From: Halogeometricum rufum
Lineage (GTDB): Archaea; Halobacteriota; Halobacteria; Halobacteriales; Haloferacaceae
Direction of reading: 5' to 3'
DNA: 64,000 nucleotides
Assembly (NCBI RefSeq): GCF_900112175.1
Contig: NZ_FOYT01000006.1
Coordinates: forward strand, 124,001-188,000
Shown one piece after another: positions 16,039 through 63,035 of the stretch (the stretch's first letter is position 1; each line of letters opens with the position of its first letter). The translations under genes and the position numbers were made by a program. A model generated the notes under the pieces. That model was given only the letters and a program-made list of their open reading frames with translations. It searched no databases and was not told where the DNA came from.

Positions 16039-16055
16039 TTACTAAACAGCTGTCC

Positions 16056-18698
16056 ATGGCAGAGAACCCTGCAAACAGCCCGAACGACGCGGGCACCGAC
16101 CACACCGACGACCAGACCGACGACGCCAAACTCCTCGGCCGACGCGACACCCTCAAACTGGGCGCCGCGACTGCGGCCGTCGTCGCCGGTGCCGGTGCCG
16201 CCTCCACTGCCGCCGCCGCGACCGAACGCGAAGGCGTGTCGTTCGACCGCGTCGTGAACGCCGTCTCCGACCTCGGGATGGACCCGAACGGGAACGACCG
16301 AATCGACGGCAAGTTAGAGAACGCCCTCCGCCCCGGGACGCTCATCGAGTTCCCCGCGGGCACGTACAAGATACGGAGCAAACAGGTCCTCGAGGACCGG
16401 ACCGGTATCGTCGGCGTCGCCGGCGACCGATCGGAGGTTCGGTTCGTCCCCCCGCAGGGGACGGGGATGCGCTGGCTCAACTTCGGGAACGCCGCCGGCG
16501 TCGTCCTGAAGAACTTCACCCTCGACCGCCGCGACGACTACAACACGACGGTCGGGATGGGCGGCAACATCAAGCGGAACTTCGTCCTGAAGAACGTCGA
16601 GTACGACGGCTGGACCCCGACGGGGCCGCAGATGTTCGCCGCGAACGTAACCGACCCCAACGGGACGGCCGTCGTCGACGGCCTGTACCGGACGGGTCCG
16701 ACGCGCTTCGAACACTACCCCGACAGTTCGCTCGACATCTGGAGCGGCCGCGGCCACGAGGGCCACATGGTCCTCCGGAACGTCGAGATTCACAACGGCT
16801 CCGAGTCGGGCATCTACACCGGGAAGGGGAACGGTACCTACCTCATCGAAGACTGTTACATGAAGAACGTGGTCCACACGGCCATCCGGGCCGCCGGTCG
16901 CGACTCCACGGTCCGCAACTGCACCATCGTGATGGACACGGAGGACTGGGACTCCCGCAACGAGAAGGTCGAGTCGCAGTTCGACGGCAAACCCATCCAA
17001 CTCAACCGCGCCATCTGGGCGCAGACGAACGACAAGCGCTTCTCGGGCCCCGTCATCGAGGACTGCGACATCATCATCAAGAACACGACGTCCATCGCGA
17101 TGGCCGGCATCTACATCAACTTCGACACCGGCGGCGCGAAGATTCGCAACACTCGCGTCCAGTGTGACTCCGAGCACGTCATCCCCGTCTACGGCCAGAG
17201 CCCGACCAACGAGGCGGGCGAGCCAATCGAGATGGAACTCGACGGCGTGAGCGTCACCGGGTCGGCCTGGAGCAAGGCCGCGATGTACTTCGAGGACCGC
17301 CCCAACTCGGTCATCCGCAACTGCTGCATCTCCTCGCCCAACGACAACGACGGCATCCTCCTCGACAACTGCGACGGTTCCGTCGTGGAGAACACGAACG
17401 TCGACGTCGGCGGCCGTTCCACGACGTTCCGGAACGGGCGGGTGTCCACGTCGGGCATCACGTCGGGCGATAGCTGCCCCCTCCCGTCGCTGCCGGGTTC
17501 GACGCCGAGCGACGGCACGCCCTCGACCAGCGACGGGTCCGGCGGGTCGGGCGACAGTACCGACGGGTCGAGCTACGACCTGCCGTACCGCTTCACGGTG
17601 AAGAGCACGGGCGGCGGGAAGACGGAGTTCACCGTCTCAACGAGCGGTACGATGAAGCCCGCCTCGAACGGCGAGGGCATCGTCGAGAACCGGACGGTCA
17701 CCGACAGCCTCGGACCGGTCTCGGGCGTGGACAGCTACCTGTACGAGGGCTACGTCACGGACTTCTCCGTCACCGGCGGGCAGTACGCAGACTACTTCGT
17801 CGAGACGGCCGACGGCTCGAAGTCCGTCGAAGTGACGCCCGAACTCCTCTCGGGGAACACGTTCGTCGTCAAGAGCACGGGCGGGGGCGTCACGTCGTTC
17901 GACCTCAGCGTGGACGGCGAACTCGTCCGGGGGGCGAGCGGTCTGGAGGACACCGTCGACGGGCAGACGGCCTCCGGTCAGGTCGGCCCCGACGCCGGCG
18001 TCGACGCGTTCCACTACACCGGGTCGATCACCGACCTCGCGTTCGAGGGCGCCGAGTACGCCACCGTGACGGTCAACGGGACGGAGATAGACCCGACGCA
18101 GTACGAGAGCGGGACGGACGGCGGCACCGACGACGGGAGTTCCGGCGACGGCAGCACGTCGGACCCGACGACCGACCTGCCGAACTCGCTCACCGTCGTC
18201 GGGACGGGGACGAGCGCGACGTACGCGGTCACCGTCTCCGAGGACATCGCCGTCTCGCCCGACGAGACGGACGACATCTCCGGCAACGTGGCGACGAACA
18301 GCGCCGAGGGCGCGGTCACGGACGGCGAGGACATGTACGTCTACGCCGGCGAAATCACGGACTTCACGCTGAACGGCGACGCGACGGTCCTCGTCAACGG
18401 GACGGAGGTGGACCCGGCCAGTCTCGGCGGCAACGAGGAACTGCCGAACACGCTCGTCATCGACGGCACCAGTAGCGCCGCCGCGGGGACTTACACGGTG
18501 TACGTGACGGGCGACGTCGAACCCGCGCCGGACCTGACCGTCGCCGGCGACGCGAACTCGCTCGACAGCCTCGACGACAAGGTGTTCGACGGGAAAGTCG
18601 CCGGCGTCGTCAAGACGGGGAAGGACGGCTACCGCTTCTCCGGCAACATCGTCAAGATGGAGATAAACGGCGACGCGCTGGTGAACCTCGGACAGTAG
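16056..18698 (+). CDS. Tat-exported beta-helix protein with four C-terminal repeat domains
   Basis: An 880-residue protein. Residues 28-55 contain a twin-arginine signal (LLGRRDTLKLGAAT, Ala-rich h-region) with an Ala-rich cleavage region and no lipobox, so it is probably released or surface-associated. Residues about 58-465 form a right-handed beta-helix similar to the preceding lipoprotein. A Ser/Gly/Asp linker (about 480-508) leads to four related domains of about 80-90 residues starting near 511, 601, 710 and 798. Each begins with a short strand ending in a Gly/Thr turn and ends with a Y-x-(Y/F)-x-G-x-(I/V)-T-D/K-like strand plus a small Gly-Asn hairpin. The cytoplasmic-looking protein at 57378-57764 carries the same domain. 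The domain name is unknown to me; ligand binding is the obvious guess. Confidence 0.88.
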   Translation: MAENPANSPNDAGTDHTDDQTDDAKLLGRRDTLKLGAATAAVVAGAGAASTAAAATEREGVSFDRVVNAVSDLGMDPNGNDRIDGKLENALRPGTLIEFPAGTYKIRSKQVLEDRTGIVGVAGDRSEVRFVPPQGTGMRWLNFGNAAGVVLKNFTLDRRDDYNTTVGMGGNIKRNFVLKNVEYDGWTPTGPQMFAANVTDPNGTAVVDGLYRTGPTRFEHYPDSSLDIWSGRGHEGHMVLRNVEIHNGSESGIYTGKGNGTYLIEDCYMKNVVHTAIRAAGRDSTVRNCTIVMDTEDWDSRNEKVESQFDGKPIQLNRAIWAQTNDKRFSGPVIEDCDIIIKNTTSIAMAGIYINFDTGGAKIRNTRVQCDSEHVIPVYGQSPTNEAGEPIEMELDGVSVTGSAWSKAAMYFEDRPNSVIRNCCISSPNDNDGILLDNCDGSVVENTNVDVGGRSTTFRNGRVSTSGITSGDSCPLPSLPGSTPSDGTPSTSDGSGGSGDSTDGSSYDLPYRFTVKSTGGGKTEFTVSTSGTMKPASNGEGIVENRTVTDSLGPVSGVDSYLYEGYVTDFSVTGGQYADYFVETADGSKSVEVTPELLSGNTFVVKSTGGGVTSFDLSVDGELVRGASGLEDTVDGQTASGQVGPDAGVDAFHYTGSITDLAFEGAEYATVTVNGTEIDPTQYESGTDGGTDDGSSGDGSTSDPTTDLPNSLTVVGTGTSATYAVTVSEDIAVSPDETDDISGNVATNSAEGAVTDGEDMYVYAGEITDFTLNGDATVLVNGTEVDPASLGGNEELPNTLVIDGTSSAAAGTYTVYVTGDVEPAPDLTVAGDANSLDSLDDKVFDGKVAGVVKTGKDGYRFSGNIVKMEINGDALVNLGQ

Positions 18699-18808: not shown

Positions 18809-18932
18809 TTGGACGAGCATTCGGTCGCCGCACGACCGAGAGAGAACCGGACGGCGCGCCGTCAGCGCTTCACTTTTCGAACCGCCTCACGCCCGGAGCG
18901 ACCGCGCCGATTCGTCTCGGCGGAGTCGCGCG

Positions 18933-19178: not shown

Positions 19179-19214
19179 AGTGACCGATGTGAGAGCCCGT
19201 TGGCGAACGGAGCG

Positions 19215-19224
19215 GTTTGTTATA
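19215..19224 (-). promoter_or_regulatory. Promoter box TATAACAAAC (minus strand)
   Basis: Minus-strand TATAACAAAC ends 37 nt before the ATG of the RHH-like gene, giving a short leader of about 10 nt. Confidence 0.5.
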
Positions 19225-19317
19225 GACCGGCTACGGCCGGAACGGCACCCTGAGCCGGCGTGGCACGCACCGACGCCCGCGCCGCGACCGTCGCGCCGCG
19301 GTCGCGGGTACTCCCGG

Positions 19318-19327
19318 CATAACAAAA
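19318..19327 (+). promoter_or_regulatory. Promoter box CATAACAAAA
   Basis: CATAACAAAA ends 25 nt before the ATG at 19352 and is followed by a GGAGGG ribosome-binding-like sequence (19335-19340). It favours ATG 19352 over GTG 19343. Confidence 0.55.
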
Positions 19328-19351
19328 CCCCGAAGGAGGGTAGTGCGGCGC

Positions 19352-20590: not shown

Positions 20591-20681
20591 ACCGTCGGCC
20601 GCCCAGAGGAGGCCCGGAACAGGCCTCGAACCGCCGGTCGCGAACCGTCGGTCGTGACGGTATCCGAGCGACGCGCGGCGG

Positions 20682-21680: not shown

Positions 21681-21798
21681 TGTCTCTCCGGTCCGTTCGC
21701 GGGGGCCTTTGTTCACCGCTCACTAATCGCCCGAAATCGGCGACGAGCGCGTCGAAAGCGACGGACGCTCGTGAGAGAGTCACGAGCATTACCAGCGC

Positions 21799-21808
21799 CA
21801 TAACGATA
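21799..21808 (+). promoter_or_regulatory. Promoter box CATAACGATA
   Basis: CATAACGATA ends 30 nt before the ATG of an 11-codon ORF that overlaps the flippase start, and 62 nt before the flippase GTG itself. Confidence 0.45.
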
Positions 21809-21837
21809 GGTCCGGGCGACGGTCTCGTAGGGTAAGA

Positions 21838-21873
21838 ATGGAATCTCGCGTGCGTACGGGGGGTCGGCAGTGA
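21838..21873 (+). CDS. Upstream ORF (11 aa) overlapping flippase start
   Basis: ATG GAA TCT opens an 11-codon frame (MESRVRTGGRQ). Its TGA at 21871-21873 overlaps the flippase GTG (GTGA). It lies 30 nt after a CATAAC box. Same arrangement as at 1117, 46273, 51810 and 54727. Confidence 0.3.
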   Translation: MESRVRTGGRQ

Positions 21874-23384: not shown

Positions 23385-23503
23385 ACCGCGCGGCGACCCC
23401 GGCCGAGTCGGCGACAATCCCCGACTAATCCGACGCGTTTCGCGGGTGTCGTCCGTTAGTCGCTGACGAATTAATGCCTCGGAGCGACAGCCTCCAGTAT
23501 CAA

Positions 23504-24898
23504 ATGTCACGCGACATCGTCTGGATAACGCTCGAGAGCGTCCGGCAGGACCACACCTCCCTCGGCGGCCACCACCGCGACACGACGCCGTTCCTGTCGT
23601 CGCTGGCCGGCCGCACGACGGGCGCGGCGTTCGAGCGCTGCTTCTCTCACGACGTCTGGACCCGCGCGTCGAGCGCCTCCATCCTCACCGGACTCGCCTC
23701 CTCCGCCCACCGGACGTGGACGCAGGAGAATCGTCTGTCGAGCGACGTTCCGACCGTCCCCGAGGCGTTGCGAGACGCCGGCTACCGGACGGCCTGCGTC
23801 TCGCCCAACCCGCAGTTGAGCGACGCGACGGGGCTGGCCCGCGGGTTCGACCACTTCCACTACCTCGGAAAGGACACCCTCGTCGAGGAGGCGGGTATCC
23901 CGACGGTCCTCCGCTACCTGACGAAACTCAACACGCACTCGGCGGGCTACACGACCGACACCGGAAAGCACTCCGTCGGCTACGTGAGCAACGCCATCGC
24001 CAAGCGACACGTCCGCGAGGCCGCCGCGAACGACGAGGACCTGTTCCTCTACACCCACCTCGGCGACAGCCACCACCCGTACTACCCGCCGAAACCGTAT
24101 CAGGACCTGTACGCCGACGACTTCGAGATGTCCGTCGAGGAGGCCCTCGACCTGGTGATGGAGATGTCCGACGACCTGCACGGCTACATCGCGCGCGGCG
24201 TGCCGTTCACCGAGGACGAGTGGAACGCGCTGCAGGCGATGTACGACGCCACCATCCGCTACGTTGACGACACGGTCCGCAGCCTCGTCGAGTACGCCGA
24301 GGAGCGACTGGACGACCCCATCGTCGTCGTCACCGCCGACCACGGCGAACTGTTCGGCGAGAAGGGGATGCTCGCGCACATGGTGGTCGCCGACGACGCC
24401 GTCTCGCACGTCCCCCTCGTCGTCTCCGGCGTCGACGGCGTCGAGAGTCACGACGGCGTCGTCCAACACGCGGACGCGATGACGGATGTGCTCGACGCCG
24501 TCGGCGTCGGCTTCGACGTCGCGGCGGGGGTCGGACTCGCCCCGGAGGCCCGCGAGTTCGCCGTCACGCAACGGAGCGGCGTTCGCTGCGCGAGCAAGCT
24601 CGACACGATTCAGGAGCGAGACCCCGCGTTCGACGCCGCGCGCTACCACGCGGGCGACCTGACGAGTCTCCGGACGCGCGACTACCGCTACCAGCGCAGC
24701 GAGTCCGGAGAGGAACTGTTCGCCCTCCCCGACGAGATGACGGACGTCGCCGGAGACCACCCGGACGTGTGCGAGACGCTGGCCGCGAAGGCCGAGTCGT
24801 GGCTCGGAACCTACGGGGTCCCGACGTCCGAGCGGGAAGAACAGGCCGAGTTCGACGAGTCGATGACCTCGCACCTCGAAGACCTCGGCTACCTCTGA
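23504..24898 (+). CDS. Sulfatase family protein with Asp-to-Glu change at a metal site
   Basis: A 464-residue sulfatase-fold protein. IVWITLESVRQDHTSL (about residues 5-20) aligns with the VTVDSFRSD motif of active members but has Glu11 where Asp normally binds metal. WTRASSASILTGLASS (about 53-68) is the nucleophile region and VVTADHGELFGEKG (about 278-291) keeps the Asp-His pair. The C terminus ends HLEDLGYL, like many sulfatases. ATG 23504 is chosen because AATTAAT (23470-23476) lies 28 nt upstream; an in-frame ATG at 23474 would overlap that box. It may act on glycan sulfate or phosphate esters, with altered metal chemistry. Confidence 0.85.
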   Translation: MSRDIVWITLESVRQDHTSLGGHHRDTTPFLSSLAGRTTGAAFERCFSHDVWTRASSASILTGLASSAHRTWTQENRLSSDVPTVPEALRDAGYRTACVSPNPQLSDATGLARGFDHFHYLGKDTLVEEAGIPTVLRYLTKLNTHSAGYTTDTGKHSVGYVSNAIAKRHVREAAANDEDLFLYTHLGDSHHPYYPPKPYQDLYADDFEMSVEEALDLVMEMSDDLHGYIARGVPFTEDEWNALQAMYDATIRYVDDTVRSLVEYAEERLDDPIVVVTADHGELFGEKGMLAHMVVADDAVSHVPLVVSGVDGVESHDGVVQHADAMTDVLDAVGVGFDVAAGVGLAPEAREFAVTQRSGVRCASKLDTIQERDPAFDAARYHAGDLTSLRTRDYRYQRSESGEELFALPDEMTDVAGDHPDVCETLAAKAESWLGTYGVPTSEREEQAEFDESMTSHLEDLGYL

Positions 24899-48752: not shown

Positions 48753-50570
48753 TCAGTGGACCGTCACCGACTTCGCGAGGTTACGCGGTTTGTCGATGGG
48801 CCGGTCGAGGAGGTCCGCGGCGTGGTAGGCGACGAGTTGGAGTTGGACGCTGGCGGGGATGCCGGCGACGTCCGGGTGCGTCTCGGGGATGGAGAGCACG
48901 TAGTCCGCGAACTCCGCTATCTCGCTGTCCGTCTTGCTCGTGACGGCGATGACGGGCGCGCCGCGCGCCTGTACCTCCTTCATGCTGCTCAGCGTCGCCT
49001 CGTCCTCGAAGCCGGTGAACAGCGCGAAGACGGGCGTGTTCGGCGTGACGAGCGCCAGCGGTCCGTGCTTCAACTCCGAGGCGGCGAACCCCTCGGCGTG
49101 CTCGTACGTGATCTCTTTGAACTTCAGCGCCCCCTCCAGCGCGGCCGAGTGCCCGACGCCCCGGCCGATGAAGAAGTACGAGTCGCTGTCGTGGAGTTCC
49201 TGTGCGAGCGCCGGCGCCACGGAGGTGTCGAGTATCTCCTGGACGTGACCGGGGAGGCGCGAGAGCGCCTCGACGAGTTCGCGGCCGTCCGAGGTGCGCG
49301 TGCCCGTGATGTCCTCGACGAGTCGCTCGCCGAGGAGCGACAGGGCGGTGACCTGCGAGCAGAACGTCTTGGTCGCGGCGACGCCGATTTCGGGGCCCGC
49401 GCGGATGAGGAGCGTGTCCTCGCACTCCCGCGTGATGGACGACCCGACGGTGTTGGTGACCGCGACGGTGTCGGCGCCGGCGCTCTTGGCGCGCCGGATG
49501 GCGTCGAGGGTGTCCGCCGTCTCACCGCTCTGCGTGACGGCGATGACCAGCGTGTTGTCCGTCACCGGCGGGCTGACGAGTCCGTACTCGCCGGCCTGGA
49601 ACGCGTACGCCGGGACTCCCCGCGAGGAGAGCATCGACGAGGCGTACATGGCGGCGTGGTACGAGGTGCCCATCCCGACGAACTGGACCTGGTCCACGTC
49701 GGCGAACGTCTCCGGCGGGAACTCGTCGAGTTCGACGGTTCCCGTGAGCGCGTTCAGTCGGCCGTGGATGGTGTTGCGGAGCGACCCCGGTTGCTCGTGA
49801 ATCTCCTTGAGCATGAAGTGCTCGTAGCCGCCCTTGCTCGCCGTCTCGGCGCTCCACTCGACGCGCTGGACCTCCCGGGAGACGGACCGGCCCGCGCCGT
49901 CGGTTATCTCGTAGCCGTCCTTCGTCACCTTCACGAAGTCGCCGTCGTGGAGATAGACCACCTGATCGGTGTGCTGGACGAACGCCGGTACGTCGCTGGC
50001 GAGGAAGTACTGGCCCGGCCCGATGCCGAGACAGAGCGGCGACCCCGACCGGGTCGCGTAGATGGCCTCCTCTTCGCCGATGATGGCGGTGATGGCGTAC
50101 GTGCCGGAGAGGCGGGCGATGGCCGAACGGAACGCCTCCTCGGGCGTCGCGCCGTTGTTCAGTTCCTCCTCGATGAGGTGCGGGACGACTTCGGTGTCCG
50201 TCTCGCTGGCGAACACGTGGCCGCGGGACTCCAGTTCCGTCTTCAGCGACTGGTAGTTCCCGATGATGCCGTTGTGGACGACGGCGACGCGCCCCGACTC
50301 GTCGGTGTGCGGGTGCGCGTTCTCGTCGGTGACGCCGCCGTGAGTGGCCCAGCGGGTGTGCCCGATACCGAGGCTGCCCGACATGGGGTTCGATTCGACG
50401 GCTGCGACGAGTTCTTCGACCTCGCCCGTCTTCTTGTTCAGCTGGATGCTAGAGCCGTTCTTGACGGCGAGGCCCGCGGAGTCGTATCCCCGGTACTCGA
50501 GCCGTTCGAGTCCTTCTAACAGCGGTTCGACCGTGTCGTCCTGCCCGATGCACGCGGTTATTCCACACAT
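48753..50570 (-). CDS. glmS: Glutamine-fructose-6-phosphate aminotransferase GlmS
   Basis: A 605-residue isomerising glucosamine-6-phosphate synthase. The N-terminal glutaminase begins MCGITACIGQ with Cys2 as nucleophile and has HTRWATHGGVTDENAHPH (about residues 72-89). Two SIS domains follow: MGTSYHAAMYASSML with VTQSGETADTLDAIR (about 300-355), and YFFIGRGVGHSAALEGALK (about 460). The extreme C terminus NLAKSVTVH is the family hallmark. It makes GlcN-6-P for UDP-GlcNAc. The ATG lies 2 nt after the stop of the upstream nucleotidyltransferase gene, so the two form an operon. No riboswitch is expected or seen. Confidence 0.96.
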   Translation of the reverse strand: MCGITACIGQDDTVEPLLEGLERLEYRGYDSAGLAVKNGSSIQLNKKTGEVEELVAAVESNPMSGSLGIGHTRWATHGGVTDENAHPHTDESGRVAVVHNGIIGNYQSLKTELESRGHVFASETDTEVVPHLIEEELNNGATPEEAFRSAIARLSGTYAITAIIGEEEAIYATRSGSPLCLGIGPGQYFLASDVPAFVQHTDQVVYLHDGDFVKVTKDGYEITDGAGRSVSREVQRVEWSAETASKGGYEHFMLKEIHEQPGSLRNTIHGRLNALTGTVELDEFPPETFADVDQVQFVGMGTSYHAAMYASSMLSSRGVPAYAFQAGEYGLVSPPVTDNTLVIAVTQSGETADTLDAIRRAKSAGADTVAVTNTVGSSITRECEDTLLIRAGPEIGVAATKTFCSQVTALSLLGERLVEDITGTRTSDGRELVEALSRLPGHVQEILDTSVAPALAQELHDSDSYFFIGRGVGHSAALEGALKFKEITYEHAEGFAASELKHGPLALVTPNTPVFALFTGFEDEATLSSMKEVQARGAPVIAVTSKTDSEIAEFADYVLSIPETHPDVAGIPASVQLQLVAYHAADLLDRPIDKPRNLAKSVTVH

Positions 50571-50572
50571 AG

Positions 50573-51745
50573 TTACGCTGCCACCTCTGACTGCTCGCGG
50601 ACGACTCCGTCCACGACCACGCCGGCACCGACGGTGGCCTCGGCGCCGACGCTGCTACCTGCCGTAAGCGTCGCGTTCGCACCGACCGTGGCGCGGTCGG
50701 CGACGATACTTCCGATTCTGCGGTCCGTGTAGAGGCGGCCGTCGACGACGACGTCCGCCCGTCCGCCCGGCGAGGCGACGCAGTCGCCGATGCGGGCGCC
50801 GGACCCGACGACGGAGTCGCGCAGGAGGGCGTTCGCCCCCACGTGCGCGTCCGTCGACACGATGGACCGCTCGACGACCGAGTTGGCCCCGACGTGGACG
50901 TTGTCCTGCAGACACGTCCCCGACCGGATGACCGCGCCGGGGCCCACGTCGCAGTCCTTGCCGATGACGACCGGCCCCTCGATGATGGCCGACTCGTGGA
51001 CGCGCGCGGAGTCCGCGACGTACACGTCCGACCCGTAGTGGCGGCCCAGGAGCGTCTCGGAGACCGAGAGCAACTGCCAGGGGGTCGAGGGGTCGAGCCA
51101 CCCGCCGTTGACGAGGATGGAGGTGACGGGGCCGTCGAGATGCTCGATGGCGTCCGTCAGCCGAATCTCGCCTTGCCACGGGTCGGTCTGGTCGAGGGCG
51201 TCGAACACCGAGTCGTCGAACGCGTAGACGCCGGCGTTCACGACGTAGCCCTCTCGCTCGACCGGATGCTCGTCGATGTCGGCGATGAGGCCGCGGTCGG
51301 TGATGACGACGCCGTACTCCTCGGGGGTGTCCGAGTGTGCGACCGCCACGGTGGCGGCGCAGTCGGTCGACTCGTACCGTTCCAGCGTCGACTCGACGAT
51401 TTCGGTGTCGATGATGTTGTCTCCGTTGACGACGAGGAAGTCGCCGTCCACCATCCCGGACGCCTGCATCAGGGCGTGACCGCTCCCGAGACGGGAGGGC
51501 TGCTGGACGAACTCGACGTCCAGGTCCTGATACGCCGCGGTGAGGTGCGTCTGGATGCGGTCGCCGCGATAGCCGACCACGACGACGACGCGTTCGATGC
51601 CACTGTCTACGAGCGCGTCGAGGACGTAGTCGACGACCGGTCGGTTCGCGACGGGAAGCATCGGCTTCGGGAGATACTTCGTGAGCGGACGGAGCCGCCG
51701 ACCCTCACCTGCGGCGAGGACGACCGCCTCGCGGACGTCGCTCAT
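50573..51745 (-). CDS. Sugar-1-phosphate nucleotidyltransferase with hexapeptide domain (GlmU-like)
   Basis: A 390-residue protein. The nucleotidyltransferase motif is VVLAAGEGRRLRPLTKYLPK (about residues 8-27), GSGHALMQASG (about 84) and VVNGDNIID (about 101), then NAGVYAF (about 150) and residues about 240-385 with hexapeptide repeats (AIIEGPVVIGKDCDVGPGAV, then ATVGAGVVVDGVV). It resembles the gene at 46620, so two GlmU-like enzymes occur in the window; being just upstream of glmS, this one is the stronger candidate for UDP-GlcNAc synthesis. Start ATG 51745 overlaps the stop of a 22-codon upstream ORF. Confidence 0.88.
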   Translation of the reverse strand: MSDVREAVVLAAGEGRRLRPLTKYLPKPMLPVANRPVVDYVLDALVDSGIERVVVVVGYRGDRIQTHLTAAYQDLDVEFVQQPSRLGSGHALMQASGMVDGDFLVVNGDNIIDTEIVESTLERYESTDCAATVAVAHSDTPEEYGVVITDRGLIADIDEHPVEREGYVVNAGVYAFDDSVFDALDQTDPWQGEIRLTDAIEHLDGPVTSILVNGGWLDPSTPWQLLSVSETLLGRHYGSDVYVADSARVHESAIIEGPVVIGKDCDVGPGAVIRSGTCLQDNVHVGANSVVERSIVSTDAHVGANALLRDSVVGSGARIGDCVASPGGRADVVVDGRLYTDRRIGSIVADRATVGANATLTAGSSVGAEATVGAGVVVDGVVREQSEVAA

Positions 51746-51810
51746 CCGGGTCCCTCCCGGCACGGACGAACTGACGCCGTGCCGTTCGGCCGGGCGGAGT
51801 GTAGTGGCAT
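51742..51810 (-). CDS. Upstream ORF (22 aa) overlapping nucleotidyltransferase start
   Basis: On the minus strand ATG (51810) opens 22 codons (begins MPLHSARPNG, ends REGPG). Its TGA overlaps the next gene's ATG (ATGA). The ATG lies 25 nt after a TATAACAATG box, so transcription would start at it. This is one of the clearest examples of the coupled small ORFs. Confidence 0.4.
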   Translation of the reverse strand: MPLHSARPNGTASVRPCREGPG

Positions 51811-52117: not shown

Positions 52118-52729
52118 CTAGCGGTCGACGTCGCGCTGGCGGTACGTCTCCATCGCGGTGAGGACGACGAGCGCGGTGGTGCTGACGACCGCCCACCCGG
52201 CGGCGGGAACGAGTGCGAACCCGGGAGCACCGAGGAGGCCGGCGGCGACGGCGACGCCGACGGCGCCGGCGACGGCGACGTTGCGTTTCGGCGACGAGGA
52301 ACGCACGTCGTCGTCCGCGGGCGTCGAGTCACCGAGGTACGGTTCGAGCTGTTCGGCCATCGGCTTCAGCGTGATGTCGCCGCGGTTCTTCTCGAAGTCG
52401 ATGACGCCGGAGTTGGCCATCTTCGGAAGGTGGCACTGGTAGAGACCGATGTACACGCGCTTGCGCTGGCTGGAGGAGAGCTGTGCGATCTCGATGTCGT
52501 TCTCCTTCGCGGCGATGTACTCGGCCATGTCGCCGAGTTTCGCCTCGCCGTCGTTCTCCTTCAGGTACCGAATGGCGTCGCGGCGTCGCTGGTTCTTCAG
52601 CAGTTCGAAGATGGTATCCTTCGAGAGGAGTTCCTGCGCGTCTTCCTGCTGTTCGGGCTGTTCGGCTGCGTCCGCCTCGGGGGTCGAGGCGTCTTGCGTC
52701 TTGGATTGGGTGAGTGTTTCGAGTGCCAT
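52118..52729 (-). CDS. Membrane-anchored winged-helix protein (DUF7344-like)
   Basis: A 203-residue protein. After an acidic Gln-rich lead (about 1-35), a haloarchaeal winged-helix domain is present: LSKDTIFELLKNQRRRDAIR, then LGDMAEYIAAKENDIEIAQL and QRKRVYIGLYQCHLPKMANS with the beta-wing GVIDFEKNRGDITL. Residues about 155-195 form two hydrophobic helices (VAVAGAVGVAVAAGLLGAPG, then GWAVVSTTALVVLTAM). This matches the family recently named DUF7344. It has a close relative at 53222, so the two are neighbouring paralogues. Start ATG 52729 is preceded by GGGAGGT. Confidence 0.82.
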   Translation of the reverse strand: MALETLTQSKTQDASTPEADAAEQPEQQEDAQELLSKDTIFELLKNQRRRDAIRYLKENDGEAKLGDMAEYIAAKENDIEIAQLSSSQRKRVYIGLYQCHLPKMANSGVIDFEKNRGDITLKPMAEQLEPYLGDSTPADDDVRSSSPKRNVAVAGAVGVAVAAGLLGAPGFALVPAAGWAVVSTTALVVLTAMETYRQRDVDR

Positions 52730-53221
52730 CTGCCTACCTCCCTCTCGTCGAGAGGCGCCGTTGCGCCGGTCGTCGGTGTCACCCACCAGGTTAATTTGAT
52801 ATTTCCCGATTGGCTCGCGGTGGGCGACGTCCTAACGTCGCTGGTTCGACCCCGCACGAGAGGTCAACTACTCTTTCTACAGGGGCCGACATATACCTGC
52901 CTTCGAGTCGCAGGTTCTGCTGTCGTTCGCGCAGCGAGCGTATTTTTTAAGGACTTGGCCAAAGATATTAAGACATCCCCTAACAGAAATCGAACGGCTA
53001 ACTCACTCGAATTGTGTGTCTAACCCGCCCGATACCACGAAATTCGAGAGCGAACGAAAATTCGAACTGCGCGGCAGTAATTCTCTCGCAGTATCTGCAC
53101 GGATTGCAAACAGTTGACACTATGGGCGAGATACCGACGTGTCAGACCGGCCGGTAGTTTCGGTACTCGGGCGAGAGACCGGAGAAAGGTGTGCGCTCTA
53201 CGCTGCCCCACCGACGCGTTC
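52730..53221. other. Intergenic region of 492 nt between the two winged-helix genes
   Basis: The stretch 52930-53060 is AT-rich (for example TATTTTTTAAGG near 52941 and AAAGATATTAAG near 52970) and probably holds the promoter region of the 52118-52729 gene. No gene or RNA could be assigned. Confidence 0.45.
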
Positions 53222-53749
53222 TCATTCGATGAGCGTCTCGAACGAGTCCGTGGTCTCTTCGCCGCTCGACTCGGCCAGATACTGTGCGCCCGCGAGGGCG
53301 AGTATCGCAGTCGAGACGAGCACGGCGATGGCGAACCACGGAAGCGCCTCTAGGGCGACCGCTCGCGCGAGTATCGCGAGCCACCCCACCGCACCCAGGA
53401 TGGCGTAGTAGGTCGCCCACGGCCGGGATTCGTCCTCCGTTCGCATCCAGAAGAATCCCTCGCTCGCAATCTCCGGTGTGAGCGCGACGATGCGCTCCTC
53501 GTCGTCGTACGAGACGATGCCAGCCTCCTCTAACTTCGGGAGATGTGTCTGATACAGCGAGATGTACACCCGCTGTCGCTCCTCGTCCGTCACCTCATCT
53601 ACCGATGTGCCGTTCTCGACGGCCGCGATCTGGGCCGCCAACTGTTTCAGGCTCATCTCGTCTCCAGCCTCGTGGAGGTAGTAGATGATGTACCGACGAC
53701 GAGAGTTACTGAGTATTCGGAACAGCTCGTCTTTGGATAGGTCGATCAT
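53222..53749 (-). CDS. Membrane-anchored winged-helix protein (DUF7344-like paralogue)
   Basis: A 175-residue protein with an N-terminal winged helix: LSKDELFRILSNSRRRYIIY, LKQLAAQIAAVENGTSVDEV, RQRVYISLYQTHLPKLEEAG and IVSYDDEERIVAL. Two C-terminal membrane helices follow (TYYAILGAVGWLAILARAVA and WFAIAVLVSTAILALAGAQY). The arrangement is the same as in the gene at 52118. Such proteins could transmit a membrane signal to DNA, but neither ligand nor targets are known. ATG 53749 was chosen; a GTG directly before it is equally possible. Confidence 0.82.
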   Translation of the reverse strand: MIDLSKDELFRILSNSRRRYIIYYLHEAGDEMSLKQLAAQIAAVENGTSVDEVTDEERQRVYISLYQTHLPKLEEAGIVSYDDEERIVALTPEIASEGFFWMRTEDESRPWATYYAILGAVGWLAILARAVALEALPWFAIAVLVSTAILALAGAQYLAESSGEETTDSFETLIE

Positions 53750-54803: not shown

Positions 54804-54807
54804 ATGA
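54727..54807 (+). CDS. Upstream ORF (26 aa) overlapping wecB start
   Basis: ATG 54727 opens 26 codons (begins MTTHRNAVER, ends QVPRHR). The TGA at 54805-54807 overlaps the wecB ATG (ATGA). The distance to the TATAAC box is 36 nt, longer than the 24-30 nt seen elsewhere. The peptide is Arg-rich, so a coupling role is more likely than a protein function. Confidence 0.3.
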   Translation: MTTHRNAVERTEDGVRDERRQVPRHR

Positions 54808-55931
54808 CGGCCGACAGTGGCGGCGCGTCGCAGGTGGCAATCGTCCTCGGCACTCGACCAGAGATAATCAAGTTCGCACCCGTCATCAAGGCGTGCGACC
54901 GTCGAGGTGTCGACTGTCTCCTCGTTCACACCGGGCAACACTACTCGGAGGACCTCGACCAGGTGTTCTTCGACCAGTTGGAACTCCCGACGCCGGACTA
55001 CAACCTCGAAGTCGGCTCTCGTTCGCACGGCGAACAGACCGGACGGATGCTCGAGGGCATCGAGGACGTCCTCGACGAGCACGCTCCGGACGTCGTCTTG
55101 GTTCAGGGCGACACGAACTCGACGCTCGCCGGCGCACTCGCCGCCTCGAAGTCGAACGTCGACGTGGGCCACGTCGAGGCGGGCCTGCGAAGTTTCGACC
55201 GGGACATGCCCGAGGAGGTGAACCGCGTCGTGACGGACCACATCGCCGACTACCTGTTCCCGCCGACGGAGGAGACGAGGAGCCACCTCGAACGGGAGTC
55301 GGTCGCCGGCGAGATAGTGACCACCGGGAACACCATCGTGGACTCGCTGTACGAGTACCGTGACCTCGCCGCGGAGAAGAGCGACGTGCTGTCGGACCTC
55401 GGTCTGCAGGAAGACGACTTCTACCTCCTCACCGCCCACCGCGCGGAGAACGTCGACGACCGCGAGAGTTTCGCTCGACTCCTCGAAGGCGTCTCTCGCT
55501 TCGCGGCGCAGACCGGCCGCGAGGTGGTCTACCCCATCCACCCCCGCGCGCAGTCTCGCCTCGACGAGTTCGACCTGACGCTCCCCGAGGAGATTCGGAC
55601 GGTCGAACCGCTGGACTTCCTCGACTTCCTCCGACTGGAGTCGGCCGCCGCCCTCGCCTTCACCGACTCCGGCGGCGTTCAGGAGGAGACCTGTATCCTC
55701 GGAACGCCCTGCGTGACGCTCAGATACAGCACGGAACGGCCGGAGACCGCTTACGTGGGCGCGAACTGTCTGGCTGGACTCGACCCCGACGACGTCGTGG
55801 AGGCCGGGAGCACGATGCTCGGAAAGGACGCCGACTGGGACGTCCCCTTCGGGGACGGCCGCGCGGCGGAACGAATACTCGACACGCTCGCCGCCGGGGT
55901 CGAACCCGACGCGGCGGAGGTATCTCCATGA
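54804..55931 (+). CDS. wecB: Non-hydrolysing UDP-N-acetylglucosamine 2-epimerase
   Basis: A 375-residue GT-B-fold epimerase. VLGTRPEIIKFAPVIKACD (about residues 14-32), LLVHTGQHYSEDLDQVFFDQ (about 38-57) and VQGDTNSTLAGALAASK (about 93-109) are typical; VGHVEAGLRSFDRDMPEEVN (about 115-134) carries conserved His and Glu, and TDSGGVQEETCILGTPCVTLR (first 20 of it about 288-308) is the C-terminal UDP-binding motif. It interconverts UDP-GlcNAc and UDP-ManNAc. The stop overlaps the wecC ATG by 4 nt, so the two genes form an operon. Confidence 0.95.
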   Translation: MTADSGGASQVAIVLGTRPEIIKFAPVIKACDRRGVDCLLVHTGQHYSEDLDQVFFDQLELPTPDYNLEVGSRSHGEQTGRMLEGIEDVLDEHAPDVVLVQGDTNSTLAGALAASKSNVDVGHVEAGLRSFDRDMPEEVNRVVTDHIADYLFPPTEETRSHLERESVAGEIVTTGNTIVDSLYEYRDLAAEKSDVLSDLGLQEDDFYLLTAHRAENVDDRESFARLLEGVSRFAAQTGREVVYPIHPRAQSRLDEFDLTLPEEIRTVEPLDFLDFLRLESAAALAFTDSGGVQEETCILGTPCVTLRYSTERPETAYVGANCLAGLDPDDVVEAGSTMLGKDADWDVPFGDGRAAERILDTLAAGVEPDAAEVSP

Positions 55932-57220
55932 AAATCTGTGTACACGGAATCGGTTACATCGGGCTCGCAACGGCAGCACTGTTCGCGAACAACGGCCACG
56001 ACGTCGTCGGCTACGACCCCGACGAGGAACTCGTCGAAGAGTTACGCGCCGGGAACCCGCGCACGACCGAGGCGGAACTCCGCGAGTACGTCCTCGACGC
56101 ACTCGACGCGGGGCTGGAACCCTCGACCGAAGTCGTCGAGGCCGACTGTCACATCGTCTGCGTGCCGACGCCCTACGAGGCGGACTCCAAGCGCGCGGAC
56201 CTCTCGTACGTCGAGATGTCCGGTCGGACGGTGGCGGAGTACCTCCGCGAGGACGACATGGTCATCCTCGAGTCCACCGTCCCGCCGGGAACGACCGAAG
56301 AGGTTCTCGCTCCCATCCTCGCCGCGTCGGAACTGACGCCCGGCGAGGACTTCTCGCTCGCGCACTGCCCGGAGACGGTTCTCCCGGGAAACATCGCCCA
56401 CGAACTCGTCCACAACGACCGCATCATCGGCGGTATCGACGACGAGTCCGCCGACAAGACCATCGCGCTGTACGAATCGCTCGTCGAGGGTGACATCCAC
56501 CGCGCACCGGACGCGACGACGGCGGAGTTCGTGAAACTCTCGCAGAACGCCTACCGAGACGTGAACATCGCGTTCGCCAACGAACTCGCCCGCGTGGCGA
56601 ACGACTACGGCATCAGTTCGCGCGACGCCATCGACCTGGCGAACGTCCACCCGCGCGTGGACGTTCTCAACCCCGGCCCCGGCGTCGGCGGTCACTGCCT
56701 GCCCATCGACCCGTGGTTCCTCGGCCAGTTCTCCGACTCGCTGGACCTCATCGCCACCGCCCGGCGCGTCAACGACGGGATGGTGGACTTCGTGGTCGAA
56801 CTCCTCGACGGAGAACTCGGTTCGCTGGACGACGCGAGCGTCGCGGTCCTCGGCGTCGCCTACAAGGGGAACGTGGACGACGCGCGGCACAGTCCGGGAC
56901 TGCGACTCGTCGAACGACTCACCGCGGCGGGATCACGGGAGGTCGGTGCGGCGGCGGCCGACGGCGGCCAGTTGGTCGGCGACGTGGACGTCCGCGTTCA
57001 CGACCCCCACGTCAGGACCGACGCCGTCGACCTCGTGGACCTGGACACCGCCCTCGACGGCGCCGACGCGATGGTCGTCGCCGCCGGCCACGACGCGTTC
57101 CGCGACGTCGACCCGGCCGAGGCGGCCGACCTGATGGACGGCCGCGTCGTGGTGGACGGGTTCTCCATCCTCGACGCCGACGCGTGGCGCGACGCCGGAT
57201 TCGACTACGTGGAGATCTGA
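55928..57220 (+). CDS. wecC: UDP-N-acetyl-D-mannosamine dehydrogenase
   Basis: A 430-residue nucleotide-sugar dehydrogenase. The NAD motif is CVHGIGYIGLATAALFANNG (about residues 4-23). LESTVPPGTTEEVLAPIL (about 110) and CPETVLPGNIAHELVHNDRI (about 146-165) are the family hallmarks, and the catalytic Cys lies in GVGGHCLPIDPWF (about 254-266). It oxidises UDP-ManNAc to UDP-ManNAcA in two steps. Together with WecB and the Glm proteins this gives a complete route to an acidic amino sugar. Region GSREVGAAAADGGQLVGD (about 336-353) is a longer loop than usual. Confidence 0.93.
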   Translation: MKICVHGIGYIGLATAALFANNGHDVVGYDPDEELVEELRAGNPRTTEAELREYVLDALDAGLEPSTEVVEADCHIVCVPTPYEADSKRADLSYVEMSGRTVAEYLREDDMVILESTVPPGTTEEVLAPILAASELTPGEDFSLAHCPETVLPGNIAHELVHNDRIIGGIDDESADKTIALYESLVEGDIHRAPDATTAEFVKLSQNAYRDVNIAFANELARVANDYGISSRDAIDLANVHPRVDVLNPGPGVGGHCLPIDPWFLGQFSDSLDLIATARRVNDGMVDFVVELLDGELGSLDDASVAVLGVAYKGNVDDARHSPGLRLVERLTAAGSREVGAAAADGGQLVGDVDVRVHDPHVRTDAVDLVDLDTALDGADAMVVAAGHDAFRDVDPAEAADLMDGRVVVDGFSILDADAWRDAGFDYVEI

Positions 57221-57377
57221 CTCCGGCACCCGCCGCAGTCGATAATAGTAGCTTAAATCGCCCAGAAACAGCCGTCTGAAGTTCGTGTCGAGGGGCCATT
57301 CACGAAGACCTGAAAGACGCGTATTTTCCACTTTCAAGCGTTTCTACGCCACATTTACCACAAGACTTATTTCGTTA

Positions 57378-57764
57378 ATGGGAATGAAAGAGAGTATGGG
57401 ATGCGACGATACCGACGGTCCCGCGGCCGGCGTGGAGACCGACCACGACCAACCGAACCAAGAGAACTCCGGGACGACTTCGATGGGGACTTCGACGCTG
57501 GGGACGTCGGAGACGGAGCACGTCGCGGACGACCAGTACCTGACGATACGACCGACCGACGACGGCGTCGCCACGTTCGAGGCGACAGTCGACGGACGAA
57601 TCAAGTCGGCCGACGACCTGGACGCGATACTTCCCGGCCTCGGGAAGTGCGCCGAAGACGCGATACTGAACGAACCTCGTCAGTACATCTTCACGGGGAA
57701 CCTCACGAGCATCCGAATCGACGGCCCCGCCGCCGCGTTCCTCGACGGCGACCGCGTCGCCTGA
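57378..57764 (+). CDS. Stand-alone protein with the beta-helix C-terminal repeat domain
   Basis: A 128-residue acidic protein without signal peptide. Residues 1-50 are disordered (Asn/Ser/Thr/Gly). Residues about 54-128 (YLTIRPTDDGVATFEATVDG, then YIFTGNLTSIRIDGPAAAFL) match the four C-terminal domains of the exported protein at 16056, especially the last one (YRFSGNIVKMEINGDALVNL). The same order of strands and the Y-x-F-x-G-N-(L/I)-x3-(I/M)-x-I-x-G ending are shared. Start is ATG 57378 or 57384; a TTTA box about 26 nt upstream favours the latter. Function is unknown; it may be a free form of a domain otherwise used on the cell surface. Confidence 0.6.
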   Translation: MGMKESMGCDDTDGPAAGVETDHDQPNQENSGTTSMGTSTLGTSETEHVADDQYLTIRPTDDGVATFEATVDGRIKSADDLDAILPGLGKCAEDAILNEPRQYIFTGNLTSIRIDGPAAAFLDGDRVA

Positions 57765-57963: not shown

Positions 57964-58758
57964 TCAGTCGCCGTCTTCGGCGGACGTCACCGACGAGAGT
58001 TCGGCCTGTTCGGCCGCGTCGAGTTCGTCGATACCGAGTTCGCCGCGTTCGGCGCGGACGAGTCGTTCGGCGCGGGCGCGGTCCTCGGGGTAGCCCACGT
58101 CCACGCGCCATCCCTCCGCCGGCACCGCCGAGATGGTCCGGCCGGAGTGGATGAGTAGGTCGATTGCGTCGGGCAGTTCGTACTCGCCGCGGTCGGAGGC
58201 CTGGACGAGACGGCAGGCGTGGAAGATGGCGGGCGAGAACGTGTAGAACCCCGTCATCACGAGGTTCGACTCCGGTTCGTCGGGTTTCTCCACCACTTCG
58301 AGGATGTCGCCGTCGTCGTTCGTGACGCAGACGCCGTAGCGGGAGGCCTCCTCCCACGGCACCTCCTCGACGAGGAACGCCGCGTCGGCGTGGTCCTCGT
58401 GTTGCCGGGCGACGACTTCGTCGAGGTTCGCGTTGAACACGTTGTCGCCGAGCATCAGCATGAAGTCGTCGTCGACGTGCTCCTCCGCCGTGAGGACGGC
58501 GTGCGCCAGACCGAGTGCCTCACGCTGGTGGGCGTACGTGATGGGGACGCCGCGGTACTCGTCGCCGAAGTGGCCGATTATCTGCTCTTTCCGGTGACCG
58601 ACGACGAGGACGAACTCCTCGGCGTCGAGTTCGTACAGGCTGTCGAGGCAGTGTTCGAGAATCGGGCGGCCGTCCACCTCCACGAGCGCTTTCGGTTTAT
58701 CGTTCGTCAGCGGTTGGAGGCGAGTTCCCTTCCCGGCGGCGAGTACGACTGCTTTCAT
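57964..58758 (-). CDS. Sugar nucleotidyltransferase (glucose-1-phosphate type)
   Basis: A 264-residue single-domain nucleotidyltransferase: AVVLAAGKGTRLQPLTNDKP (about residues 3-22), LGLAHAVLTAEEHV (about 82-95), MLMLGDNVFNANLDEVV (about 99-115) and LEVVEKPDEPESNLVMTGFY (about 153-172). It lacks the hexapeptide domain of the two GlmU-like enzymes, which points to UTP/dTTP-glucose-1-phosphate (AglF- or RmlA/GalU-like) activity. A TATAACAATC box ends 26 nt before ATG 58758. The 199-nt gap after the stand-alone domain gene holds nothing clear. Confidence 0.9.
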   Translation of the reverse strand: MKAVVLAAGKGTRLQPLTNDKPKALVEVDGRPILEHCLDSLYELDAEEFVLVVGHRKEQIIGHFGDEYRGVPITYAHQREALGLAHAVLTAEEHVDDDFMLMLGDNVFNANLDEVVARQHEDHADAAFLVEEVPWEEASRYGVCVTNDDGDILEVVEKPDEPESNLVMTGFYTFSPAIFHACRLVQASDRGEYELPDAIDLLIHSGRTISAVPAEGWRVDVGYPEDRARAERLVRAERGELGIDELDAAEQAELSSVTSAEDGD

Positions 58759-58783
58759 CGAACGTAGCTACAGCTAGCGCGTA

Positions 58784-58793
58784 GATTGTTATA
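58784..58793 (-). promoter_or_regulatory. Promoter box TATAACAATC (minus strand)
   Basis: Minus-strand TATAACAATC ends 26 nt before the ATG of the nucleotidyltransferase gene, the leaderless spacing. Confidence 0.55.
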
Positions 58794-59002
58794 CGGCGGA
58801 TAGCGGCGCGGCCCCCCGCGCCGTACCCACCTATGTGCGGTGTCGAACCCGTGCCAACGGGTTTCAGGCAGATAGCTTGTCGTTCGGGCCACGTGTCGCG
58901 GCAGCGAGTCGGGAGCATCCGAAATGCGACCACGAAGCCTGAACGTGACCACAAATGAGCTATAGCATTATAAATAGTATTACGCCAATTGGAGAAATAC
59001 GT

Positions 59003-59036: not shown

Positions 59037-60359
59037 TTAGGGTGCGATTCCGTGCTTCTCGGCGAGACTGTTCACATCGTCTAGGAGTCGCTCCGCGGCC
59101 GACTCGCGGCGCGCCTCGACGGTGACGCGGACGAGGGGTTCCGTCCCGCTCGCGCGCACGAGGAACCAGCCGTCGTCGGTGTCGACGCGCACGCCGTCCG
59201 TGGTGTCCACGTCGTCGTACGCCGCGCGGAGGGCGTCGCCGATGGCCGCTATCGCACCGGTCTTGTCGTCGACCGGAAGGTTCAGCCGGCGGGTGGCGTA
59301 CCGCGACGGGTCCACGTCGGCCATCTGTTCGGAGAGCGGTCCCTCGCGGCGGACCAGGTCCACGAGTCGAAGCGCGGCGTAGTTGGCGTCGGGCGCGAGC
59401 GTCTGGTCGGGCCACATCCACGCACCGCTCGGTTCACCGCCGAAGACGAAGCCGGGTCGGGAGACGGCCTCGGCGACGTAGACGTCGCCGACGGGCGTGT
59501 ACTCCACCTCGCCGCCCGCCGCCTCGACGACGTCGGCGACGAGGAGGCTGGTGTCGACGGGGACGGCGACGGCGTCGCCGGGGGAGACGGCGTCGCGGGC
59601 GAACAGGGCGAGGAGAACGTCGCCGGGGACGTACTCGCCGGTGTCGGAGACGGCCACCATGCGGTCGGAGTCGCCGTCGTGGGCGATACCGACGTCCGCA
59701 CCGACCGCGGGGACGGTGTCTCGAAGCGCGGTCAGCGTCTCGGCGGTCGGTTCGCTCTCGCGCGCGGGGAACGTGCCGTCCGGTTGCGCGTTCAGCGTGT
59801 TCACCGTCGCACCGAGTTCGTAGAGGGCGTCGACGCTGACGCGACCGGTGCCGTTGCCGAGGTCCACGACCACGTCGAGTCCGTCCAGCGAGTCGAACTC
59901 GGCGGTCACCGCCTCGGTGTGCCGTTCGACGGCACTGTCGTCCGCGGATTCGCTCCCGAAGGCGTCCCACGCCGCGCGTTCGGCGTCGGCGGCGAGTCGT
60001 CGCTCGATGCGTTCGTTCTGCTCGGGCGTGAACGCCTGTCCGGACGGGTTCCACAGTTTGATGCCGTTGTCGGGGGCGGGGTTGTGCGACGCGGTGACGG
60101 CGACGCCGGCGTCGGCGTCGAACCACTCGACGCTCCGCGCGATGGTCGGCGTCGCGGCGACGCCGACGCGGACGACGTCGGTCCCGCACTCGCGGAGTCC
60201 GGCGCTGAGAGCGTCCGTGAGGACGTCTCCCGTGACGCGCGCGTCCCGTCCGAGAACCACTCGGTCCGCGTCGACGGCGACAGCCTGTCCGATGCGGAGT
60301 GCGAGGTCCGCCGTCACCGTCTCGCCGACGGGGCCCCGGATGCCGCTCGTTCCAAACAT
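59037..60359 (-). CDS. glmM: Phosphoglucosamine mutase GlmM
   Basis: A 440-residue alpha-D-phosphohexomutase. MFGTSGIRGPVGETVT at the N terminus, the phosphoserine motif VAVTASHNPAPDNGIKLW (about residues 91-108, catalytic Ser in TASHNP), the metal loop IAHDGDSDRMVAV (about 226-238), the sugar-binding FGGEPSGAWMW (about 307-317) and the phosphate-binding VRASGTEPLVRVT (about 403-415) are all present. It converts GlcN-6-P to GlcN-1-P, linking GlmS and the GlmU-like enzymes. Although not adjacent to glmS it serves the same UDP-GlcNAc pathway. Could also act on glucose or mannose phosphates. Confidence 0.93.
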   Translation of the reverse strand: MFGTSGIRGPVGETVTADLALRIGQAVAVDADRVVLGRDARVTGDVLTDALSAGLRECGTDVVRVGVAATPTIARSVEWFDADAGVAVTASHNPAPDNGIKLWNPSGQAFTPEQNERIERRLAADAERAAWDAFGSESADDSAVERHTEAVTAEFDSLDGLDVVVDLGNGTGRVSVDALYELGATVNTLNAQPDGTFPARESEPTAETLTALRDTVPAVGADVGIAHDGDSDRMVAVSDTGEYVPGDVLLALFARDAVSPGDAVAVPVDTSLLVADVVEAAGGEVEYTPVGDVYVAEAVSRPGFVFGGEPSGAWMWPDQTLAPDANYAALRLVDLVRREGPLSEQMADVDPSRYATRRLNLPVDDKTGAIAAIGDALRAAYDDVDTTDGVRVDTDDGWFLVRASGTEPLVRVTVEARRESAAERLLDDVNSLAEKHGIAP

Positions 60360-61742: not shown

Positions 61743-63035
61743 ATGCACGTCGTCCTCGTCACCGCTTCCGCCGTCCGCCACGACCACGTCCACGCCGAGG
61801 ATGGGCACGTAGAGAGTTCACTGCCCGCACTCGGCCGTCTGGCGGACGACGCGACGGTGTTCTCCCGCGCGTACACCAGTTCACCGGACCCCGAATCGAC
61901 GCTTCGAGCGGTACTGACCGGGTGGCACCCGATGCGAGACGGTGGCAGCGACTCGACCCTCGTGGACGCCATCTCCGAAGCGGGATGGGAGACCGGGCTG
62001 TTCCACGGTGACCCCGAAGGGTCGCTCTCGTCGCGGGGGTTCGAGGCCCCCGAGCGGTCGACGGCGGAGAGCGCGACCGACCGACTCCGACAGCGCCTCG
62101 GCCGGACGATGGAGGCGAAGACGGCAGTCGGGAGGTCGCTCGACCGGGTAGACCAACTGTTGGGGTCGACGGTCGGCGCCACTCTCGGCGCCTCGTCCGT
62201 CCGCCCCGGCGAGGACGTGACGGAGCGCGCGCTGTCGTGGCTGGACGAGACGTCCGGACCGCGGTTCCTCTGGGTCCACTACGACGACGCCGCGGCGCCG
62301 CACGTGCCGCGCGAGGGCACGGTGAGCGACGATATCGACCCCCGGACGGCGACGAAACTCGCGTACGCCACCGAGCGTGCCCCGGACGCCCTGACGGAGG
62401 ACGAACGCGAGACGCTAGAGCGACTGTATCGCGGCGAACTCGAACACCTCGACCGGTGTGTCGGACAGTTGTTCGACGGGATACAGTCCCGCCTCGACGT
62501 GAACGACACGGTGACGGCGTTCATGGGGACGAGCGGCTGTCCGCTGGGCGAACGCGGCCGCTGGTACGACACGCACGACGACTTCCACGACGAGTCGGTC
62601 CGCGTCCCCCTGTTCGTCCACGGACCGGAGTTCGACGCCGAGACGGTGGAGTTCGCCGCGTCCTCGGTGGACGTGCTGCCGACACTCCTGTCCGCCGCCG
62701 GCGTCGAACGCGAGGAACGACGCGGCGGGTCCGACCTCCGGTCGTTCATGGGCCGGCGCGTGACGGAGCGACAGGTGTTCGCCGCCAGCGGTGACTCGCC
62801 GACGGAGGCGATGGTGTGCAACAGTCGCTGGAAGCTGGCCCGAACGCTCCGGGAGGGCCGGGAGTCGCTGTTCGACCACGGTGACGACCCCGGGGAACGC
62901 CGGGACCGTTCCGGCGAGAACCTCCCCGTCCAGCGAGCGCTCTCGCACGCGCTCGACTGCTTCGTCGAGAACCGTCGCGGGCAGCGGACCGAGTCGTCTC
63001 GGCGGATGGCGGCGTCGGGCGAACGTGGGCGTTAA
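61743..63035 (+). CDS. Sulfatase-fold protein lacking metal ligands (probable pseudoenzyme)
   Basis: A 430-residue protein with sulfatase architecture. VLVTASAVRHDHVHA (about residues 4-18) aligns with the VTxDSxRxDH motif but has Ser9 instead of the metal Asp. AYTSSPDPESTLRAVLTGWH (about 45-64) is the nucleophile region. The usual SDHGE-x2-GE is replaced by FMGTSGCPLGERGRW (about 260-274), so Asp and His are lost. YDTHDDFHDESVRVPLFVHG is well conserved, showing that the fold is kept. Loss of all metal ligands argues against phosphatase or sulfatase activity; a binding or scaffold role is possible. TATTAAT lies 26 nt upstream of the ATG. Confidence 0.82.
   Translation: MHVVLVTASAVRHDHVHAEDGHVESSLPALGRLADDATVFSRAYTSSPDPESTLRAVLTGWHPMRDGGSDSTLVDAISEAGWETGLFHGDPEGSLSSRGFEAPERSTAESATDRLRQRLGRTMEAKTAVGRSLDRVDQLLGSTVGATLGASSVRPGEDVTERALSWLDETSGPRFLWVHYDDAAAPHVPREGTVSDDIDPRTATKLAYATERAPDALTEDERETLERLYRGELEHLDRCVGQLFDGIQSRLDVNDTVTAFMGTSGCPLGERGRWYDTHDDFHDESVRVPLFVHGPEFDAETVEFAASSVDVLPTLLSAAGVEREERRGGSDLRSFMGRRVTERQVFAASGDSPTEAMVCNSRWKLARTLREGRESLFDHGDDPGERRDRSGENLPVQRALSHALDCFVENRRGQRTESSRRMAASGERGR

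Follow-up and report, generated by a model that had tools for sequence, protein, structure and literature searches.

A small gene in a haloarchaeal glycan-biosynthesis locus and an exported beta-helix protein share an unnamed domain

Two proteins encoded in the window, the 64,000-nucleotide stretch of DNA analysed here, share a real domain of about 75 residues that has no name. The domain forms the C-terminal part (57537..57761, plus strand, delimited by profile searches and predicted structure) of a small protein whose gene lies on the plus strand at 57396..57764, and it is repeated at the C-terminus of an 880-residue protein encoded at 16056..18698 (plus strand). The initial annotation described the latter as an exported beta-helix protein carrying four copies of the domain, and all of these elements were found: a Tat signal, a match to the right-handed beta-helix family PF13229 (32.0 bits, cut-off 25.9) and four C-terminal copies identified by profile at 17571..17843, 17844..18125, 18171..18437 and 18438..18695 of the plus strand (envelopes at residues 506-596, 597-687, 706-795 and 794-880, respectively). 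These tandem copies are separated by low-complexity linkers.

The relationship between the two proteins was examined with a profile built from the four beta-helix copies only and run against the complete 4.19 Mb genome. Apart from its own four copies and a paralogue on another contig (E = 5e-11), the profile found the small gene (genome-wide E = 2.7e-4), and the row that followed had an E-value of only 0.59. The proposed match of the C-terminal 75 or so residues of the small protein (about 54-128) to the four copies was thereby recovered in the very profile search that had been named as able to refute it. The small protein scored 22.6 bits. Of 5000 shuffled versions, in which the N-terminal part and the domain were randomised separately, the highest-scoring one reached 10.0 bits (4997 of 5000 reported). 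Pairwise BLASTP of the small protein against the copies was weak (best E = 0.002). The four-copy profile also recovered all 27 proteins of a set that combined tblastn matches of the small protein with the two proteins of the window, the worst E-value being 6e-6; this set omits L005, L024 and L026 and the overlapping frames L025, L027 and L028. In the tblastn searches of 60 genomes with the small protein, 22 genomes were matched at E<=0.01, and large multi-copy proteins were found at E-values down to 1.4e-8. The motifs Y-x-F-x-G-N-(L/I) and I-x-G-(P/D)-A, which had been attributed to all copies, are present in full in the small protein and in copy 4, but the alignment shows looser versions in copies 1-3.

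The initial annotation recognised no named family, and indeed no Pfam or NCBIfam family covers the domain: the small protein had no Pfam match at E<=1 and no NCBIfam match, and PHROGs gave a chance-level row only (E = 0.11). No description of the domain was found in the titles and abstract openings of the literature. The paralogue of the beta-helix protein (G000:C1:1129400-1131022, L002) is 56% identical to it and has one clear domain copy followed by a degenerate stretch. Beside the 880-residue protein is a smaller beta-helix protein (14173-15774), which has twin arginines and a cysteine at the lipobox position, and in which no domain copy was found. The surrounding region (12553-24898) encodes a phosphodiesterase-like protein, two sulfatase-family proteins and a polysaccharide-flippase-type protein.

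A 27-row profile of the domain was used for a wider search. It had matches in 103 of 170 genomes within the window's family; a phylum-level sample of 294 genomes gave 36 with the domain, and all of these belong to the window's order. In these searches the domain family was thus found only in haloarchaea of this order. Three viral contigs (L058, L059 and L060) encode proteins of about 585 residues with one domain copy each; the L058 protein had no match in Pfam or PHROGs, and two other scans of viral contigs were empty. Exported PF13229 proteins of haloarchaeal polysaccharide loci (e.g., WP_004060911 of Haloferax mediterranei) likewise have several C-terminal copies of the domain, but they are large, while the small gene encodes only the domain and an N-terminal tail. 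WP_004060911 itself had no beta-helix match in Pfam. A homologue of the 880-residue beta-helix protein lies among polysaccharide genes in H. mediterranei (L061), a species whose exopolysaccharide (EPS) gene cluster was reportedly deleted in a 2013 study. Passages of PMC6759562 and PMC8387396 describe deletion of an H. mediterranei EPS cluster and do not state that the L061 gene belongs to it. One large protein (L090) combines the domain with PKD, CARDB and Ig-like domains.

The initial annotation regarded the small protein as a free-standing copy of the beta-helix protein's domain. This description has to be replaced, as the small protein belongs instead to an old single-domain family with its own side of the tree, its own place in the genome and its own promoter. 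A maximum-likelihood tree was built from 100 domain copies (L075, which repeats L063, and L089 and L090 were left out). In it, all 35 single-domain proteins fall on one side and all 65 copies from larger proteins on the other; the branch to the single-domain proteins has a support of 88/79, is unstarred and is present in 88% of bootstrap trees (81 columns, 100 rows). Named carriers of the single-domain gene are Halobellus limi (WP_136361908), Salinigranum marinum (WP_318570779), Halobellus rarus and six Halorubrum strains. Short frames of 107-236 residues in five genomes of another family (G057, G332, G354, G367 and G308) match profile positions 1-66 only and are perhaps a second single-domain subfamily.

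The small gene is situated among genes for nucleotide-sugar synthesis. Upstream on the same strand are wecB, for a UDP-GlcNAc 2-epimerase (54804..55931; TIGR00236, 390 bits, cut-off 210), and a wecC-like nucleotide-sugar dehydrogenase gene (55928..57220; TIGR03026, 387 bits, above its cut-off). The description of the small gene as next to wecBC thus holds for wecB, but the product of the second gene exceeds the cut-off of the general nucleotide-sugar dehydrogenase model alone and is far below those of the WecC-type equivalogs, the archaeal UDP-ManNAc dehydrogenase and AglM, so the sugar made by the locus is uncertain. On the minus strand downstream are aglF, for a UTP-glucose-1-phosphate uridylyltransferase (57964..58758; NF041313, 420 bits, cut-off 400), and glmM, for a phosphoglucosamine mutase (59037..60359; TIGR03990, 464 bits, cut-off 439). 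A sulfatase-family gene at the window end (61743-63035) stays beside glmM in relatives. On the minus strand before wecB are a glmS-like aminotransferase gene with SIS and GATase domains (48753..50570), an archaeal glmU-like sugar-1-phosphate nucleotidylyltransferase gene (50573..51763; TIGR03992, 281 bits, slightly below the cut-off of 292), a DUF7344 winged-helix-type gene whose start is provisional (52118..52786; PF24035, 1.7e-27) and a second DUF7344 domain, closer to the wecB promoter (53486..53722). The order glmS-glmU-DUF7344-DUF7344-wecB-wecC-small gene-aglF-glmM-sulfatase is found in the window, in four other genomes of its genus and in two genomes of another genus (G011 and G100).

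We read 35 loci of single-domain genes (34 distinct, since L075 repeats L063), taken from a longer list of single-domain matches. A DUF7344 gene was a neighbour in all 35, GlmM in 22, GlmU and GlmS in 19 each, WecB in 17, WecC in 16 and AglF in 11, and outside the two genera just mentioned wecBC is sometimes absent or moved. DUF7344 genes are common in the window genome, with 26 matches in 4.19 Mb; at this density, roughly one every 160 kb, few DUF7344 neighbours would be expected by chance. The 35 loci share ancestry, however, and are therefore not independent. The annotated loci of H. limi and S. marinum have glycosyltransferase, polysaccharide-export, aglF, glmM, glmS or glmU neighbours. 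The tree and these gene neighbourhoods mark the single-domain proteins as an old family kept in glycan-biosynthesis loci. The window itself gave no hits in Rfam or tRNA scans. Upstream of aglF, on the minus strand (58759-58900), is a non-coding block of about 100 nt that is present in six genomes with a mean column identity of 89%; it contains two hairpins, one a perfect AACCCGT/ACGGGTT pairing and the other long and G+C-rich (the fold z-score is only -1.9), had no Rfam or tRNA match and is possibly a small RNA or regulatory site.

The open frame annotated at 57378-57764 is present, but its start is probably six residues too early. The start at 57396, giving a probably leaderless gene for a protein of 122 residues that begins MGCDD, is the most likely one because of the promoter spacing and because the M-G-C-(D/E) start is conserved; in seven genomes this start is preceded by a conserved promoter. 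In the window a TATA-like box, CTTATT (57366..57371, plus strand), is 30 nt before the start codon, and an upstream element, CACTTTCA (57329..57336, plus strand), ends 29 nt before the TATA-like box. A TATA-like box at 29-33 nt is the expected spacing for leaderless haloarchaeal genes, and it was present at that distance in all 35 genes compared, 7 with the M-G-C start (MGC genes) and 28 encoding Tat signals. Upstream of the box is a TCA-ending element, at a distance of 29 nt in 7/7 MGC genes and of 30 nt in 27/28 Tat genes (the exception being L066), as counted from aligned rows, an automatic count at exactly 29 nt giving 7/35. The element CACTTTCA is one half of an inverted repeat, TGAAAG-N14-CTTTCA (57311..57336), which occurs nowhere else in the window and is retained in each of the genus's five genomes. 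Among 12 genomes searched, the block TTACCACAAGACTTATT had one match, at the small gene, in each of the five genus genomes, and a looser form had two matches in one further genome. We rejected the idea that this promoter is exceptionally conserved, since the aglF upstream region, used as a control, has 79 invariant columns of 102, compared with 53 of 101 for the small gene; the small-gene promoter therefore supports only the start codon and common descent. The M-G-C start was also considered as a lipid-attachment site and dropped: there is no hydrophobic stretch, and at the nucleotide level ATGGGATGCGA aligns with ATGGCACGCGA of the Tat forms, so the cysteine may reflect a plain CGC-to-TGC change.

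The small protein of the window has neither twin arginines nor a hydrophobic stretch, in agreement with the earlier view that it has no signal peptide, and this sets it apart from most of its relatives. Of the single-domain proteins that do not belong to the MGC group, all 29 (28 of them distinct) have twin arginines and a hydrophobic stretch ahead of the domain, 28 being called by a script pattern and L082 by eye. None of the seven MGC proteins, which are the window protein and six relatives from two genera, has these features. The 15-residue hydropathy maxima are -0.25 to 0.15 for the MGC proteins versus 1.05 to 2.02 for the Tat proteins. In place of the relatives' Tat signal, the window protein has an acidic, low-complexity N-terminal stretch (57396..57536, plus strand). 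The MGC proteins form one clade (99/95) within a clade (99/93) that holds 15 Tat proteins, and because of this nesting a single loss of the Tat signal is the simplest history. The window's genus and one other have lost the signal, apparently once, the exported form being the usual one. The four-copy profile found no other single-domain copy in the whole window genome, so no exported one is left there.

Simple Nei-Gojobori estimates, for which some pairs are nearly saturated, gave domain dN/dS values of 0.28-0.49 within the window's genus, 0.13 within the other signal-less genus (two genomes) and 0.46-0.74 between the two, compared with 0.08-0.20 in seven Tat forms of one genus. In the N-terminal part of the MGC proteins pN is close to pS in most pairs. 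These values indicate that the domain is still functional and under purifying selection in the signal-less form, with a constraint looser than that on the exported form.

AlphaFold2 predicted an all-beta structure both for the domain of the small protein (pLDDT 87.9, pTM 0.76, 14-row alignment) and for copy 3 (pLDDT 89.8, pTM 0.82, 13-row alignment), although the two models are not fully independent because their alignments have rows in common. Unrelated folds, which had been named as an outcome that would speak against the relationship, were not seen: the strand order, by which we judged likeness, is the same in both. Neither model had a significant match among solved structures (none at E<=0.001), and a sequence profile searched against solved structures hit nothing beyond the phage T4 spike, at chance level (best E = 0.66). 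The best VIA-align rows for both models were DUF4425 proteins of Bacteroides (3u6g, 4qey), along with the related 2lge and 2lrg; the matches to 3u6g had Z 5.8 (rmsd 2.4, 72 aligned) and Z 4.8 (rmsd 3.3, 76 aligned). However, identity to these proteins is 3-12%, their chains are longer and the Z scores are within the range of a common arrangement. The top five Foldseek matches of copy 3 were carbohydrate-binding domains, at non-significant values (E 0.17-1.3) that amount to a hint at most; they are 3ndy, 6qfs, 2rtt, 5dhd and 2cwr, which we take to be carbohydrate-binding modules of the family 2 type or chitin-binding domains. Family 2 modules, matched at E 0.17-1.4 and Z about 4, resemble the domain in being small, all-beta and often terminal on exported carbohydrate-active proteins, but the small protein has no Pfam match and the domain alignment has no conserved tryptophan. 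LecB-type lectins (PA-IIL, 2jdm; BC2L-A, 4aoc) are likewise beta sandwiches, with Z 4.3 over 58-60 aligned residues; this score is weak, within the common range and level with those of unrelated rows. TRAP and Clp1 domains, close behind the DUF4425 rows, reach scores no lower than those of the lectins.

The domain occurs in two exported settings, on beta-helix proteins with a Tat signal that are encoded in polysaccharide loci and as a small secreted protein from loci of that kind, and this points to a glycan-binding module. We tentatively favour, at a little under even confidence, the reading that the small gene represents the one-domain form within a haloarchaeal family of beta sandwiches serving extracellular-polysaccharide loci, the domain being a putative small glycan-binding module, most probably for the polysaccharide of the locus. 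Several copies on exported beta-helix proteins would then hold an enzyme or structural protein on the polymer, and the single exported protein would be a lectin, either soluble or bound to the matrix. In the window's genus the binding domain would stay in the cytoplasm, where its likeliest partner may be a precursor, such as a sugar linked to a nucleotide or lipid, or else the machinery that regulates the locus. The initial annotation had suggested a ligand common to both window proteins, a sugar of the locus. Such a ligand is conceivable, but an intracellular protein cannot bind the finished polymer, so the idea fits the window's form worst; the signal-less form would meet finished polymer only if exported by another route. 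A more specific version, which we regard as quite unlikely, is that an exported polysaccharide binder was relocated into the cell in this genus and one other, losing its Tat signal but keeping promoter, place and domain, and now reads precursors or product and feeds back on the DUF7344-controlled locus.

Other explanations account for parts of these data. The domain might serve as a ligand-free, Ig-like spacer or stalk, with tandem copies distancing the beta-helix from the cell and the single-domain protein forming part of the cell surface or S-layer. The tandem C-terminal copies with their low-complexity linkers, the association with PKD, CARDB and Ig-like domains in L090 and the generic beta sandwiches among the best fold matches are all in keeping with a spacer, but it would leave unexplained why a single-domain gene is found in 34 distinct glycan loci and why selection on the domain persists after signal loss, and we consider it rather unlikely. 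We see a slightly smaller chance that the single-domain protein takes part in control of the locus together with DUF7344 proteins, as a sensor of a glycan or nucleotide sugar that, where the signal is missing, acts directly in the cytoplasm. The DUF7344 neighbour at 35/35 loci, compared with a genome-wide total of 26 matches in 4.19 Mb, and the presence of a separate promoter whose upstream element keeps a constant distance would fit such a role. However, most relatives export the protein, which therefore cannot touch a cytoplasmic regulator there; neighbourhood need not mean interaction, and the promoter block is not unusually conserved (53/101 versus 79/102 for aglF).

That the gene in the window's genus is a relic, its protein drifting towards loss since the signal disappeared, appears very improbable to us. 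The weaker constraint than in Tat forms, the similarity of pN and pS in the N-terminal part and the small protein's identity of 57-60% between species, versus 79-94% for the neighbouring sugar enzymes, would be expected of a relic, but the open frame is intact in 5/5 genomes of the window's genus and 2/2 of the other signal-less genus, domain dN/dS is 0.28-0.49 and 0.13 in these genera, respectively, and gene order and promoter are unchanged.

In haloarchaeal exopolysaccharide clusters the enzymes can be named, while the surface proteins mostly cannot. The unnamed domain links two kinds of protein to these clusters, the large beta-helix proteins that are exported and the product of a small gene dedicated to the locus. 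It provides a marker for exopolysaccharide loci and a clear candidate for glycan binding. The signal-less clade, in which the export signal was lost and the gene kept, represents a natural experiment.
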